NCBI GenBank assembly: GCA_002794785.1
Contig: NBBA01000002.1
Location: forward strand, 1,488,001-1,552,000
DNA from: Coniferiporia sulphurascens
Lineage: Eukaryota; Basidiomycota; Agaricomycetes; Hymenochaetales; Hymenochaetaceae
DNA length: 64,000 nucleotides
Direction: 5' to 3'
Both the position numbers and the translations under genes were made by a program. Shown here one piece after another: positions 37,832 through 60,082 of this stretch. How positions within the stretch are numbered: the first letter of the stretch is position 1; each line of letters opens with the position of its first letter. The notes below the pieces were generated by a model, which was not told the DNA's origin, ran no database searches, and was given only the letters and a program-made list of their open reading frames with translations.

Positions 37832-39156
37832 CGGCCTCGGTAACCGACCCACCCCCATCCCATCGCTGAAATGGCGAGACGGCACCTTCACCCAAACAGA
37901 CAAGGAGAAAGGTGAGCTTTTTCGCAAAACCTTCTTTATGCCCCCACCGCCCCAGACAGCGGCCAACACCCCGCCGCCACCACCTCAACCAGCTGCCCCA
38001 CCCATACTCCTTATGGAGCTTATGGGGGCACTGGCCGATACATCCAACTTGTTGGCTCCAGGCCTCTTGGGAATAGGTTACTGCCCCCTGAAATGGGTGG
38101 TGGATGCTTACCCCGAGGAGATTCTTACACTTTTCAATGACTGCCTACACTTGGGGCACCACCCCGAGTGCTGGTGGGCAGCAAAGGTGGTAATGCTCCA
38201 GAAGCCAAACAAGAAGGACCCATTTTCGCCGCACTCATACCAGCCCATCACCCTCAAGGAGTCCCTTGGGAAACTCCTTGAAAAGATAATAGCTAACCGG
38301 CTACAGTACCTTGCGAACATGAGGAACTGGCTGCCACCTAACCAATATGGGGGGCATCAGGGCCATTCGGTCTATGACGCCGCCCAACACCTTCTACAGA
38401 TAGCGGAATGCGCCCACTCAGAGGGCCTTGTGTGCTCGGCCCTTGCAGTCGACATCCAGGGCTTTTTCGACTTGGTGCACCCACAGCTCCTCCACCGACA
38501 ACTGTTGGACCTCAGTTGCACACCAGACATGGCCAACTGGTGTTTGTCCTTCATGACAGATCGGCAGGTCACAGTCGCCTTCGACGGCACCACCCTCCCA
38601 ACTGCCCCTAAACCCGACTACAGCACCCCTCAGGGTTCACCAGTCTCCCCCATCTTGTCAACAATATTCGCAGGTGTGGTACTCCAGCGCTTTCACCAAG
38701 CCGGCACCATGGCCTTGGCGTATGTTGATGACCACTTACTTATATGCATAGGACCCTCAGTAGCATCCAACTGCTGCGAACTCGCCAACACCTACCAACA
38801 ACTCGCCAACCTCTTCGGCACCATTGGTCTCAACATCAAAGCTGCCAAGACAGAATGCCTCCACTTCCACCCCCCTTGGCAACGTACTGGCTATAACGGC
38901 TGGGACACAGCCGGCGTACAGGTCGACCCCAACACACTAATCCGACCCTCAATCCCACTCCGGTGGTTGGGGATATGGTGGGATCCAGGCCTCTCCTTCA
39001 AACCCCACGTCGAGCAAATGCACTCCAAGGGGCTCTCCACCCTCGCTGCACTCTGCATCCTGGGCAACACCCAACACGGCATATCGGCCCTCCTCCTCCA
39101 CCACCTCTACACCTCCTGCGTCTGCTCCGTCTTGTCATGGGGAGCACCGGTCTGGT

Positions 39157-40424
39157 CATCCTTCTTGTCCTCTTACCACCACCATCTCGGTTTCACGACT
39201 GGGGTCGGCTGGGGGGAAGTCGCAGCTACCTGACCTTGTCTGGACTCACTGGGACTGGGCATCGTACGAGAGAAGGTTCCAACTCACCCTGGTGTGCCGG
39301 GGTTGGTCGTCAGTCGCTGTAATGCAGCAGGGAATGGGCGCGGAGCTCGCCAGCGGTCTTGGCAACCTGTCGAAAATGTTGCTTCTGGTCGGATTCTCGG
39401 TGAGCTTGCAATCCTTCTGGTGTCTGCGCTGTCCTCTCGGGGTGGTGTGCTCGTTGGGCTCGCATTGTATGTGGGCTCGGCGGGGGGGGACATGACGTTA
39501 ACGTCCTCACAGGGGGGGGGGAAACCCCCTGCCTCGCAGTGGGTGACTTCGGTCGGGTGATCTTGGTTCGGGGCAACTCGGATCACGCCTTCGGGTGCTG
39601 AGCAATGCCCTCCTGGGTACCTCTGGGCCCGCATTGTCCCTGGCATGACAAATCAAAAACTGCCCCCCCAAATTCCCAAAAGGGTCTCTGATGATGGCAC
39701 CTTGTGCTAAAAGGAGATAGGGGGCTCATAACACATGGCATGGCAGTAAGAACCACCTGATGCTGAAAGGCGACAGGGCACCATGGGCCTCTTGGGTGGG
39801 TTGGACCCCCTTGAGGTGGTTAGTATCCCCTACTCCCTGGGACGGCTTTGCCACCGGGGTCGGGTATGCGAGATGGAGATCCTGGTACAATCACGGATCC
39901 AGAAGTGGGGCTGGGGGCTGACTGGGCACTTGTCCCATGACCTCGGTACCCGAGTATTCTGGCTGTAATGGCTGTTTCTGAAGTGCGTGCCAGGGCACGG
40001 GAAAGGGCCTGCATGGAGTGTGCGTCGGCATTCCGGTGCGCTGAAGTGTAGTGTCTCGGGCCGTAGCGCTGTGGGACAGTCCCCCATAGTGGCTCCAGAG
40101 GACTAAATCCTCCGTCAGTTCATGTGGGGGTAATTCCCACTATGGGCTTAAGTTGATTCCCAGAAGCACAATGGTACTCTACAGGACCTCTATGGTCAGG
40201 GAGGGAATGTGTAGGGTAGGGGGGTTGTTCCATATGGGTGGGGTAGTGCCTACGGTGCCATGACCCTCACTCGGGATGGCCCCCTGGCGTGGCACGCCTT
40301 ACCCTAGTGCTCCTATATAGCGCCCATATGTTGTAGAGGACAGCGGGAGCAGTTTTGGTCGGCTGCATATCCCGAGGAAGGTACACATGTTGTCTGAGTC
40401 CTGCAAGGGCGCTCTTAATTCTGG
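39157..40424 (+). other. W sequence, copy 1 (unknown retroelement or captured RNA)
   Basis: It is related to 58827-60082 (minus strand) along its whole length. Shared blocks include GAGGACTAAATCCTCC near 40099, GGGCTTAAGTTGATTCC near 40144 and CCCGAGGAAGGTACAC near 40372. I see no convincing reading frame on either strand and no rRNA or tRNA signature. Its first 30 bases match the LINE leader at 26 positions, so it may be the 5' end of an unseen LINE family or have acquired this leader. Both copies end at the same W position. Confidence 0.7.
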
Positions 40425-41083
40425 CTCTGAAGGAGGCCGCCATCAAAACCCTAATGGAACAATGGTCTCTCTCTCTCACCTGCCCCTTTGCCTCAACAGC
40501 TGACAAGTACTTGGCTGTCAATGGTGCCCCCTCCTGCAGATCACGGAAGTTACTCAACCAGTTGGTCAACCACCCCTGCCAGGAGCTCTCGGCAGTCGCC
40601 CAGGTCCTCTGCCACGCCGGTCCCTATGGGGGCTACTGGCTGAGCTTTGACTCAGTCTACCGGCGCAGACATGGCCTGATCTCGCACTGCAGGTGGCACA
40701 ACCACCCCCCATGGCCAGCCCAATCCACTGCCCATGTCCTGGGCGGGTGCCGCACATTCCAGCCATGGATCCATAAGGTCTGGCCCCCCTGCGACCCACT
40801 TCCGACCCACCACACCAAGTGGGCCAATGAAAACCATCTCCAGGTTCTGCGCTGCTGGCTGAAATTGACTGGGCACCTGAACTGCCTCTCTGACCGCACC
40901 TCCGCCACCATCCACCTGGCATTCGCTGCGATGGACTTAGAGGGGCACCCCACCAACAAAGATATGGACTTGGACCTCCTTAGGGAATACATGAGTCGTA
41001 TGCTTGGACCCCGACCCCAGGACTCAGACCCAGCTCTTTTGGAGCTTTCAGGTACACTTCCTCCCTTTCCCTCTACTCAATGA
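40425..41083 (+). pseudogene. W1 LINE part, end of ORF2
   Basis: In-frame subfamily 2 sequence from LALKEAAIKTLMEQWSL to LLELSGTLPPFPSTQ, stop TGA 41081-41083. It holds PFASTADKYLAVNGAPS and the Cys/His segment HCRWHNHPPWPAQS with STAHVLGGC. It is nearly identical to the matching part of LINE-j, so the two derive from close source copies. Confidence 0.85.
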
Positions 41084-44000
41084 CTGCCTTTTGGACTCTC
41101 CCGCATATGTCCCAGCTGGTGCTCTCGCCCTCCCTTTCCAATTCTAAGCTACCCCCTTTACCTGCCCTAACCCGCTTGGTCTTGTTGTAGCAATATGTAT
41201 TCCTCTCCCTTGTTTCCCCTTTACTAATAGGGACCCTTCCCACCTTGGCACCCTTCAGGGAGCAGGGTCTCTGCCCAGTTTCATGCATTGTGTGATGACA
41301 GGTGCCTCTGTTGTTATGTAGTTAGGGCCCCCCTTTTGGGGGGGCAGCTTGTAATTATGTAATACTGCAGGAATAATAAATTAAAATTAAAAATTAAAAA
41401 AAAAGCACCGGTCTGGTACCATGGCCACTGCCAAAAAACCCTGGTAAACCACCTACAGGCTGTGCAAAACACGGCTTGCCGGTGGATCCTTAACGTCTTC
41501 AAAGGCGCCTCCCCTCATTCCACTAACTTCCTTTGCTCCATCCCCCCTCTCTCTTTCTATTTCGAGTATATAAAGACCACCCATTCCCTTCGCCTCTGGC
41601 GCACCCCGCACTCTGTTGGCCGAAAAATTTACAAAAACGTAACTAATAGACCTTTCTCCCTTTCTCTGCAGGTCCAAGCCCCCCGGGTTCAACAGGTCCC
41701 TGCATACATGCATCCCCCATGGACGGACCCATTGGCATTTACAAAAGGCCGGATCCGCTTCACCACCCCCGCCACTCCAGTTAGCACTGACACCCAAAAA
41801 TCATTCATGACAGCTGCGTGCCAACTAGGTTCCACCCCCCACATCTAGGTCTTCACCGACAGCTCCCGCATTGACAATAAGTCGGGTTCAGCCATCTGTG
41901 CAATGCTGGGCCACACCAGACTCCGGTCATGACGACTGGAATCCCCCACCTGTGCCACAGCCATGGATGCCGAGGAGTTCTCCCTTGCAACGGCCCCTGG
42001 CTGGGTGGCACACCGCCTCCCAGCGCAACTGCGTGTCGCATCGGACATTTTCTTCCTGTCCGATTCGCTGACTGCTCTCCACCTCTTCCATACATGGGCT
42101 GCTGCCCCCAGCACCCACCTCCTCCACATTTGGAAAGTGGGTGTGGAGACTCTGCTAGACTTGTTCCTCCAACTCACCGTGCATTTCGTATGGTGTCCCA
42201 GCCACTCAGACATCCCCGGGAATGAATGGGCTGACACGGAGGTGAAGCTGGCCATGGAGCTCCCCCCATCTGACCTCAAACCTTCCACCTCTGCACTAAA
42301 AGAAGTCGCTGTCCACACCCTCATGGAGCGATGGACACTCTCGCTGGCCTGCCCCCTAGCCTCAACTGCCAACAAGTACCTGGCAGTCCATGGCCTCCCC
42401 TCACACCGTCCACAAAAGCTACTCATGCACGCGGTTGACCACCCACATAACGAGCTGTCCACAGTCGCACAGGTCCTCTGCCGTGCCGGTCCCTACGGGG
42501 GATACTGGCTGAGCTTTGACTCGGCCTACTGTCACCGACATGGCCTGATTTCGCACTGCAGGTGGCACAACCACCCCCCCTGGCCCGCACAGTCAACTGC
42601 TCACATTCTGGGCAGCTGCAGCACATTCCACCCATGGATACGACATGTGTGGCCACCTCAAGACCCTCTCCCAACCCACCACTCAGAGTGGGCTGACAAA
42701 AACCGCCTCCCGGTTTTGCGCCAATGGCTTAAGCTGACAGGGCACCTAAACCGCCTCTCTGACCACGCCGCAGGCACCATATGGCTCTCCTTCGCCACTA
42801 TGGACCTAGATGGACACCTGACCGACGAGGATATGGACCTTTTTTTTTTTTTTTTTAAATTTATTATTCCTGCAGTATTACATAATTACAAGCTGCCCCC
42901 CCAAAAGGGGGGCCCTAACTACATAACAACAGAGGCACCTGTCATCACACAATGCATGAAACTGGGCAGAGACCCTGCTCCCTGAAGGGTGCCAAGGTGG
43001 GAAGGGTCCCTATTAGTAAAGGGGAAACAAGGGAGAGGAATACATATTGCTACAACAAGACCAAGCGGGTTAGGGCAGGTAAAGGGGGTAGCTTAGAATT
43101 GGAAAGGGAGGGCGAGAGCACCGGCTGGGACATATGCGGGAGAGTCCAAAAGGCAGTCATTGAGTAGAGGGAAAGGGAGGAAGTGTACCTGAAAGCTCCA
43201 AAAGAGCTGGGTCTGAGTCCTGGGGTCGGGGTCCAAGCATACGACTCATGTATTCCCTAAGGAGGTCCAAGTCCATATCTTTGTTGGTGGGGTGCCCCTC
43301 TAAGTCCATCGCAGCGAATGCCAGGTGGATGGTGGCGGAGGTGCGGTCAGAGAGGCAGTTCAGGTGCCCAGTCAATTTCAGCCAGCAGCGCAGAACCTGG
43401 AGATGGTTTTCATTGGCCCACTTGGTGTGGTGGGTCGGAAGTGGGTCGCAGGGGGGCCAGACCTTATGGATCCATGGCTGGAATGTGCGGCACCTGCCCA
43501 GGACATGGGCAGTGGATTGGGCTGGCCATGGGGGGTGGTTGTGCCACCTGCAGTGTGAGATCAGGCCATGTCTGTGCTGGTAGACTGAGTCAAAGCTCAG
43601 CCAGTAGCCCCCATAGGGACCGGCGTGGCAGAGGACCTGGGCAACTGCCGAGAGCTCCTGGCAGGGGTGGTTGACCAACTGGTTGAGTAACTTCCGTGGT
43701 CTGCGGGAGGGGGCACCATTGACAGCCAAGTACTTGTCAGCTGTTGAGGTAAAGGGGCGGGTGAGAGAGAGACCATTGTTCCATTAGGGTTTTGACGGCA
43801 GCCTCCTTCAGAGCGGAGGTAGAGGGGGTGAGGGAGGATGGGGGGAGATTCGTTGCAAACTTGGCCTCATGGTCGGCCCATTCATTCCCTGGTATATCAG
43901 AGTGACCCAGGCACCATACGAAATGGACGGAGAGATCCGGATATGAGTCCAAGAGAGTCTGGACCCCAGCCTTCCATTGATGAAGGAGATGGGCACCTGG

Positions 44001-58223: not shown

Positions 58224-60082
58224 TTTTTTTTTTTAATTATTCCTGCAGTATTACATAATTACAAGCTGCCCCCCCTTTGGGGGGGCCCTAACTACATAAC
58301 AATGGAGGCGCCCGTCATCACACAATGCACAAAACTGGGTGGGGACCCTGCTCCCCGAAGGGTGCCAAGGTGGGAAGGGTCCCTATTAGTAAAGGGGAAG
58401 CAAGGGGGAGGAATACATATCACTACGACAAGACCAAGCGGATTAGGGCAGGTAAAGGGGGTAGCTTAGAATTGGAAAGGGAGGGCGAGAGCGCCAGCCG
58501 GGACATACATGGGAGAGTCCGAAAGGCAGTCATTGAGTAGAGGGAAAGGGAGGAAGCATACCTGAAAGCTCCAAGAGAGCCGGGTCCAGGTCCTGGGGTC
58601 AGGGTCCAAGCATACAACTCATATATTCCCTAAGGAGGTCCAAGTCCATATCTTCATCAGTTGGGTGCCCCTCTAAGTCCATTGTGGCGAAGGCCAGGCG
58701 AATGGTAGCGGAGGTGCGGTCGGAGAGGCGGTTCAAGTGCCCAGTCAATTTCAGCCAGCAGCATAGAACCTGGAGATGGTTTTCATCGGCCCACTCGGCG
58801 TGGTGGGTCAGAAGTGGATCGCCTGACTAAAGGGCGCCCTTGCAGGGCCCAACATACGCGTGTACCTTCCTCGGGATATGGGGCCCAACAAACCCCTCCC
58901 ACTGTCCTTCACGCCGCACAGGCCTAAAGGTGAGATTAGAGCTACCCAACACACCAGAGGTGTAGTGTGAGGGTCACGGCGCCATAGGCACTACCCCACC
59001 ACCCCCAGCCGCCTGGACTCACACCCCCCCATACCCGCTTGGTGATGTGAAGCGCTGCTGCATGTCAAGGAATCAACTTAAGCCCAAATGGGAATTACCC
59101 CCATTAGAACCCATGGAGGATTTAGTCCTCTCAAGCCAACAGAGGGAACTACCCCCTGCTGCTGCAGCCCACTCAGCGCACTGAGTTTCCCGTGCCCTGG
59201 CACGTGCTTCAGAACCTACATCAGCATCAGGTGTTACCCCAACATGCTCTGCAGGGAATACTCAGGGCCCGTATTTAAGGGTTTTCCCGCTTCTGGATCC
59301 ACAGTGTACCAGAATCTCCGTGTCGCAGAGGGGTGGACCCTGACGCTTTTTACAGCTGCCAGGGAGTGCCTCTTACTAACCACCTCAAGGGGGCCCGACC
59401 CACCCGAGAGGCCCATGGTGTCCTGTCGCATTTCTGCATTGGATGGTTATTACTGCCACGCCATGTGTTATGAGACCCCCATCTCCTTTTAGCAACTAGT
59501 GCCATCATCAGAGACCCTTTCGGGAATTTGGGGAGCAGTTTTTGGTATGACATGCTGGTCATCATGGCCTCAATGCAAGTGCATCAACCCCGGAAGGTTA
59601 GACCCGACTTTTGCCGAACCCGAGGTTTCCCAGTTTTCACCAACCACTAGTGGGCAGAGGGTTTCCCGACTCCCATGGAAACGTTATCATCGTGTTCCCC
59701 CCCGACTGGCGCACTTTGCACCTTGCCCCGCTGACTGGGCCCAAGGGCACGACCAGCAGACCAGTCGAGGCACCACACCCCGAGAGGGCATGGCAGACGT
59801 GAAGAGGAATCATCCTCACCGAGTTATCCCCCCAATGCAATGTTAACAACGGGTTGCATACCCTCTGGTGAGCCCTAGAGCCCCTTTCGCGTCTTCGAAA
59901 CTGCCGTTACAGCGACTGGACGACCAGTGAGTGCGCACTCCGGAGGACCAGTGTGCAGTCGGTAGCCTTCTCTCATATTGACCCAGTAGTATACCAGACC
60001 AGAGTACGGGTTGCTGCGACGAACCCCCAGACGACCCCCAGTGAAAACCAGAGATGGTGGTGGTAAGAGGACAAGAAGGATG
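58224..60082 (-). mobile_element. W2, second W-LINE chimera
   Basis: W copy 2 (58827-60082) is joined to a subfamily 2 LINE 3' end (58224-58826) with UTR, the hairpin near 58265-58288 and an A tail (T-run 58224-58234). The junction into LINE is about 0.36 kb nearer the 3' end than in W1, while the W side ends at the same W position. Flanks differ (EN fragment on one side, LINE-q on the other) and no target duplication is seen. The W part shows no gene. Confidence 0.85.
58530..58826 (-). pseudogene. W2 LINE part, last codons of ORF2
   Basis: It covers WADENHLQVL through LTGHLNRLSDRTSATIRLAF, ATMDLEGHPTDEDMDLDLL and the final LLELSG to TGA at 58530-58532. There is no catalytic domain. Confidence 0.8.

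Follow-up and report, generated by a model that had tools for sequence, protein, structure and literature searches.

Structured W heads joined to LINE 3' parts in Coniferiporia sulphurascens, with a putative internal guide for the junctions

The stretch analysed here comprises 64,000 nucleotides of contig NBBA01000002.1 of Coniferiporia sulphurascens (positions 1,488,001–1,552,000; the window). It contains two chimeric insertions, W1 and W2, in which a head sequence that we call W is followed by the 3' part of a long interspersed nuclear element (LINE; Table 1). These are the only W matches in the window. The two W–LINE joins lie where the original prediction had put them, with LINE sequence beginning at 40425 in W1 and running down from 58821 on the minus strand in W2. 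The two heads have a common end, as had been noted, consisting of TGCAAGGGCGCYCTT and exactly 8 more bases (AATTCTGG in W1 and TAGTCAGG in W2). The W2 join is 365 bases further 3' in the LINE than that of W1, positions 366–961 of the W1 LINE part matching 58822–58227. W1 has the perfect 13-base target duplication that had been reported (AGCACCGGTCTGGT, 39143–39156 and 41404–41417), or 14 bases counting the last A of the tail. No such duplication could be detected for W2, whose flanking sequences differ from each other. Two other parts of the prediction need correction. The heads were said to share one whole W sequence; they are just 68% identical and, by sequence, belong to two of six W families and are not near copies. 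The description of the head as foreign has to be changed as well, since the first ∼32 bases of W resemble the 5' end of a LINE.

Table 1. Positions in the window of W1, W2 and a related LINE copy. In guide sequences the dot marks the join position.
Feature	Position	Strand	Remarks
W1 target duplication, left copy, 13–14 bp	39143..39156	+	
W1 head, family A	39157..40424	+	end reads ..CTTAATTCTGG
W 5' terminus in W1	39157..39188	+	resembles 5' end of LINEs
W1 internal guide (putative) CATGG.CAGTAAG	39739..39750	+	join position between 39743 and 39744
W1 3' terminal hairpin	40396..40414	+	RNAalifold; followed by 10-base tail ending GG
LINE 3' part of W1	40425..41403	+	ORF2 C terminus, 3' untranslated region (UTR), A-rich tail
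W1 target duplication, right copy	41404..41417	+	
LINE copy	42840..43812	-	98% identical to W1 LINE part, nearest relative found
LINE 3' part of W2	58224..58821	-	with A-rich tail (T-rich on + strand)
W2 head, family B	58822..60082	-	end reads ..CTTTAGTCAGG
W2 internal guide (putative) CGTGG.CAGTAAT	59449..59460	-	

Further copies were sought in the genome from which the window comes (39.35 Mb, 31 contigs). Matching stretches numbered 47 for W1 (40 of 281 candidates scored) and 54 for W2 (40 of 283 scored). The search with the W1 body found 39 other places with 84–94% identity among the scored candidates. Although this query extends 26 bases beyond the W end, 36 of the 39 copies stop at query positions 1266–1277 and three stop earlier, a result independent of selection by the W end. 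A pattern made from the W end matched 98 places in the genome, against 4 for the reversed pattern, and a looser pattern gave 157 against 11; the matches are therefore not due to chance. In total we read 150 places, 149 fetched ones and the window, most of them selected by the W-end pattern, and the W end could be recognised in 146. These copies divide into families A (65, one with an altered end), B (29), C (33), D (7) and E (12). Among the 24 full copies, mean identity is 88–93% within families and 64–76% between them. A sixth family, F, was read at five loci (L158–L162; C2:274697, C11:1587737, C16:579289, C18:826871 and C22:86992) and is ∼980 bp long. Its members are scattered outside the LINE clusters and are joined at differing places to a second group of LINEs; in L160, MGVPQGSPISPILSALF..YVDDHLL lies beside the join. 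Four further places in the genome have an F-like guide segment.

Both ends of W are well defined. The start CATCCTTCTTGTCCTCTTACCACCACCATCTC is common to the majority sequences of families A–E, is exact in 17 of the 24 full copies and shows small changes in F. LINEs start with CATCCTTCTTGACCAGTAACCACCACCAT, and one LINE in L007 with CCTTCTTGACCTCTTACCACCACCATCTC; from this resemblance, W has a LINE-type 5' end. The 3' terminus is a hairpin with a short tail, which ends in ..CTGG, ..CAGG, ..TTGG or ..GTGG. The head can thus be described as an RNA with fixed ends that is non-coding as judged from the list of open reading frames (ORFs) only.

On the LINE side the junctions are many. The 146 copies show 126 different 10-base LINE starts, and 138 of the W ends map to the plus strand of the LINE used as a ruler, at about 89 sites when sites within 2 bases are merged. 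This count is approximate: in 25 copies the match starts >15 bases past the W end and the site had to be extrapolated, and the placement of L125 and L096 is clearly wrong. When both strands were considered, the best LINE match was on the plus strand in 135 copies, on the minus strand in seven (17–176 bases past the W end) and absent in four. Joins are spread over the LINE: L041 is joined close to its 5' end, and others lie in ORF1, in the reverse transcriptase (RT) region and as far down as the 3' UTR. In 139 of the 146 copies, at least 100 bases known from elsewhere in the fetched set begin within 15 bases of the join. Six of the remaining seven have a shorter or slightly later LINE match, while L046 enters the interior of another W.

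Several LINE sites are common to more than one W family (5642, A and B; 6947, A and C; 6959, A, B and C; 6671, A and B). The LINE parts of copies joined at one site are mostly only 75–90% alike, no closer than other LINEs. The joins are therefore mostly independent, as the original prediction held for one fixed W end. A single LINE junction common to all copies, which would have spoken against it, is contradicted by the spread of sites. Nor is W the normal 5' part of the full-length LINEs of the window: LINE starts (CATCCTTCTTGACC) lead into ORF1 without W. Target duplications were sought at 73 LINE 3' ends in the window and 37 loci; duplications of 11–15 bp surround nine whole chimeras, seven of them perfect and two with one mismatch.

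A few copies have an unusual arrangement. L076 and L147 have reversed LINE tail sequence after the W end and may be solo copies. In L012 and L029, a W beginning with base 7 is preceded by 7 bases of a W end; we read this as a second join. Joins of W to W also occur: L046 is a family B head on the interior of a family C head, and at C17:780121 a broken W is directly followed by a W start. Two pairs of W chimeras (C16:46547/C28:118050 and C7:1067521/C7:1080632) are identical where compared and are likely segmental duplications.

The sites at which W is joined share a short motif. LINE bases upstream of the join were read from the nearest LINE relative, which was found for 140 of the 146 copies, and each 10-base start was counted once (n = 121). 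The base counts are C96/T20 at -3, C94/T22 at -2, G56/A33/T21/C11 at -1, C78 at +1 and C66 at +2, and outside -4 to +2 the information is at most 0.08 bit. Two pyrimidines and a purine (YYR) stand before the join at 84 of the 121 distinct sites, compared with 13.8% of LINE positions, and YY at 112, compared with 34.8%. Among 24 5'-truncated LINEs without W the figures are 2 for YYR and 4 for YY, and among 50 other LINE breakpoints 7 and 16. These control breakpoints were placed by alignment, and 3 of the 24 truncations have a target duplication. The site preference is thus tied to the W joins. Three LINEs without W (L010:70, L017(-):3882 and L036:2992) have their truncation points at one LINE place (GGCACAACC) or a few bases from it, possibly a separate hot spot lacking the W motif.

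The join motif is the complement of a segment inside W, UGG.CGGU in families A and B, where the dot marks the join (as in all sequences below). Mean pairing with this undecayed A/B guide is 5.1 of 7 bases at the 90 A and B sites, compared with 2.9 at the 24 truncations and 3.4 over all LINE positions. The segment also stood out in a scan in which every W column was compared with the LINE sites of its own family for complementarity, G–U pairs being allowed. A single register of column 677 (alignment A1) was the best of all in D and E; its rank was 3 in A, 24 in B and 7 in C. It scored 13.3 in D (next 8.0) and 8.5 in E (next 3.8), and the summed score of its region was 29.0 compared with 11.0 for the next region.

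This candidate guide lies between the conserved TAACAC-TGG and AACCA blocks. It reads TGG.CGGT in A and B (often with CAG or TGG for CGG), TTG.CGGT in C, TTGAA.GGGCAA in D, TTGT.CGGTGA in E and CAGC.CGGGT in L051. The CAG in the W1 guide is probably a decayed CGG, judging from the letters; across the genome the CpG of the guide varies among W copies between CGG, CAG and TGG, as C-to-T decay would give.

Between families, the joins change with the guide. Family D is joined at GCCT.TTC in all seven copies (upstream bases from relatives of six), and, despite this single site, its copies carry different LINEs. The six D copies with an upstream record pair at 8 of 8 positions, five of them scored with the guide of L022/L023. 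The D guide itself was read by pattern search in five loci, four of them surely tabulated D copies; at C7:1336941 the D-type guide and its W end are 1.5 kb apart. In family E, 7 of 12 copies join at CAC(C/T)(G/A).A(C/T)AA, and CACCG.ACAA is complementary to the E guide TTGT.CGGTG at every base. Position +1 of the site is a purine in all 12 E copies compared with 11 of 122 in A, B and C together (p 3e-11), the E guide having U where those of A, B and C have G. Likewise, +2 is a purine in 16 of 32 C copies compared with 8 of 90 in A and B (p 3e-6), and the C guide mostly has U where A and B have G. A further guide type, ACCAGC.CGGG as in L051, is found in two of the three copies joining at GCCCT; the second of these (C27:63339, 64027) has the same downstream join sequence.

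We scored 77 guide–site pairs, 72 from copies with their own guide and the five D copies scored with the L022/L023 guide. In these, 442 of 616 positions are paired, compared with a mean of 376.7 and a maximum of 411 in 5000 shuffles. With like sites merged (66 pairs) the figure is 366, compared with a mean of 329.7 and a maximum of 350. Mean pairing in A, B and C is 5.5, 5.7 and 4.7 of 8, compared with 3.6–3.7 at random LINE positions. In family F, the one site with an upstream record (that of L162, CACCG.ATTCCC, in L158) fits upstream and not downstream of the join.

W also appears to be a structured RNA. For 23 W copies of families A–E, RNAalifold gave -582, compared with -368 to -383 in four column shuffles, and 76 compensatory pairs compared with 20–31; such shuffles ignore the relatedness of the copies. 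The guide domain (20 copies, A–F) gave -79.5 compared with -38 to -51 in six shuffles, and the W 3' end -17.9 compared with -7 to -12. In the predicted model the guide is unpaired, in a loop between two helices.

Taken together, we consider it likely that W is a structured RNA whose internal guide, by pairing with LINE RNA, sets the place of the join. The guide, in a loop near the middle of W, would base-pair with the LINE RNA to either side of a single phosphate; the fixed W 3' end (..GG) would be joined, before or during reverse transcription, to the LINE base that follows this phosphate on the 3' side. The joined RNA, which would start like a LINE and end with a genuine LINE 3' terminus, could then be copied by the LINE machinery through target-primed reverse transcription, which would give the target duplications. 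The LINE of the window encodes RT (RVT_1, E 1.2e-27) and endonuclease (Exo_endo_phos_2, E 1.6e-7) domains. The pairing would be between RNAs and the join would be made on RNA, not by RT, in a reaction like the first step of reverse splicing in which the W 3' OH attacks the LINE RNA. W would have no source gene and would free itself from chimeric transcripts. A stronger version, which we put forward tentatively as somewhat less probable than not, is that W might be a self-acting mobile RNA. It would pair with LINE mRNA, cut it, attach itself to the 3' fragment (half of reverse splicing), free itself from chimeric transcripts and change its guide for new LINE sites or families.

Several observations weigh against a guide. 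In families A–C the pairing covers few bases and has mismatches, and W1 itself pairs at 5 of 8 positions and W2 at 4. Guides of A and B fit E sites about as well (5.5 and 5.4) as their own (5.5 and 5.5), and at C sites the guides of A and C do equally well (4.9 each). L122 has an E guide at a site of the L051/G type, and within families A–C the LINE base at -1 is not clearly predicted by that of the guide (C or T). In the scan, the guide column is outscored by 2 columns in A alone, 23 in B alone and 6 in C alone, and D and E were represented by two full sequences and one. The upstream LINE bases come from the nearest relative and not from the true source, with none for 6 of the 146 copies. Moreover, five loci compared with Rfam, from families B, C, D and E, had no hit at E<=1. 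The specificity of the guide comes mainly from D (8.0), E (6.8) and the single L051/G type; in families A–C it accounts for the common motif, but those families alone do not prove it. Two other pairings were considered and rejected. Pairing of the W 3' end (UGG) with LINE YYR was dropped since family B, in which the end is AGG, does not differ from A and C in its -1 preference. The conserved GGTGGTTAGT block fits the sites of A, B and C equally to or better than the chosen guide, but it is invariant across families, whereas D and E sites differ.

The alternative that survives best, though we regard it as unlikely, is template switching at pause sites, in which RT halts on a preferred LINE sequence and continues on a W RNA close by, beginning at its 3' end; the choice of site would be a property of RT. 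Such switching has been proposed for the MINE elements of Magnaporthe, which have the same anatomy and whose GCC*A/U motif was ascribed to RT pausing in the part of the report considered here (PMC2104539). The short pieces of W end joined near a W 5' end in L012 and L029 resemble jumps near an RNA end, and for A, B and C alone, with their similar guides, one RT-type motif could suffice. The original prediction held that many junctions with a fixed W end would prove recurrent template switching. The scarcity of the motif in truncations without W (2 of 24) weakens RT pausing as sole cause, the joins match a guide inside W, and plain template switching predicts neither; in D and E, furthermore, the site changes with the W family. 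RT stopping on a blocked template is disfavoured too, since the stop would be expected at the edge of the duplex and the predicted duplex has the join at its centre, although this is an argument and not a proof. A template switch directed by the guide would be a half-way version, which we count under the guide model.

Group I and group II introns have an internal guide that pairs across the joining point (the internal guide sequence through P1 and P10, or exon-binding site 1 with delta), and their 3' end is joined to the downstream target. W resembles them in the pairing of its guide across the join and in the joining of its 3' end to downstream LINE sequence. It might thus be a degenerate intron of either group that reverse-splices into LINE RNA, with the product of the first step, but this seems very improbable. 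The last W base is G, as group I requires, and a U at -1, facing G, is found in family D only. Elsewhere -1 is mostly not U, and no Rfam match to a P3–P7 core was found. For group II, W starts with CATCC and not GUGYG and ends in GG and not AY, and for domain 5 there is again no Rfam match. We therefore rejected an identity as group I or group II intron: W has no recognisable catalytic core in the loci searched, has other end sequences and shows no sign of a 5' splice product. Around W1, Rfam gave only a microRNA model (E 2.8), in the LINE part. The conserved ACTAAATC region of W has, by eye, a possible P7-like reading.

Cutting and ligation, with a host nuclease cutting LINE RNA at YYR.C and an RNA ligase adding W, appears a shade less probable still. 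The joins look exact by eye, with LINE sequence directly after GG in most rows, while the first base after GG differs from the LINE relative in some copies (e.g., L048 and L056). For U6/L1 chimeras, the section of a mammalian survey considered here names ligation along with template switching (PMC13174262). A nuclease alone does not account for the differing sites of A–C, D and E, and one steered by the W guide would be part of the guide model. Least probable of all, to a nearly negligible degree, is the copying of a few master chimeras with inherited junctions, which holds for a few pairs whose LINE parts show them to be copies or segmental duplications (100% in L031/L116 and L060/L061, 99% in L114/L151 and L032/L082, 95% in L110/L127, L119/L149 and L030/L150) and which for most copies is ruled out by the number of sites (about 89 for 138 mapped copies), by LINE parts mostly 75–90% alike where W ends of one family are about 90–100% alike, and by the use of common sites by different families.

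The closest known kind is MINE, as had been proposed; WEIRD–MGL and W–LINE chimeras have the same anatomy. As described in the portion of the Magnaporthe grisea report considered here (PMC2104539), MINE has a full-length non-coding head of ∼1.1 kb joined in the same orientation to a 5'-truncated LINE of variable length. It also has target duplications and a short join motif, some sites having been used more than once; chimeras of three parts occur occasionally, and no solo head was found. W shares the fixed-end head, the variably truncated LINE in the same orientation and the duplications around the whole chimera; a short interspersed nuclear element with a fixed LINE-derived tail does not fit, since the tail length varies by junction. 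That portion of the report gives 33 chimeras at 28 sites with the motif GCC*A/U, finds no solo WEIRD and no microhomology, and mentions no guide. W differs in its 146 copies read and six diverged head families, in the LINE 5' end of its head, in a guide that co-varies with the site in at least two families, and in truncations without W that lack the motif. The mammalian chimeras, such as U6/LINE-1 and U3/LINE-1, are alike in that a cellular RNA is joined to a LINE, with target duplications; their partners, as far as the survey text considered here goes, are host RNAs (PMC13174262), whereas W is a diversified family of its own, associated with two LINE groups and with a site preference apparently set by its guide. 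A literature search, mostly at title and abstract level, found no report of a guide in LINE chimeras.

The usual explanations of LINE chimeras with cellular RNA, template switching or RNA ligation, involve no guide. For W the join place co-varies with a sequence inside the hitch-hiking RNA, so that the partner, and not RT alone, seems to choose the site. The guide model gives a testable account of the MINE motif, so far unexplained, and points to a possible new RNA-guided RNA-joining activity; if right, it would also be a new means by which a genetic parasite selects its carrier. It could also serve as a model for the spread of a non-autonomous RNA that has no LINE tail of its own and borrows many. 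If W is self-acting as in the stronger version above, it would be a new kind of retrotransposon parasite, an RNA-programmed graft on LINE RNA.

The window as a whole (1–64000) is a nest of many LINEs, with LINEs inserted in LINEs, and ORFs that look Ty3-type are found around 5.1–9.7 kb and 12.4–16.7 kb. It is perhaps a centromere-like region.

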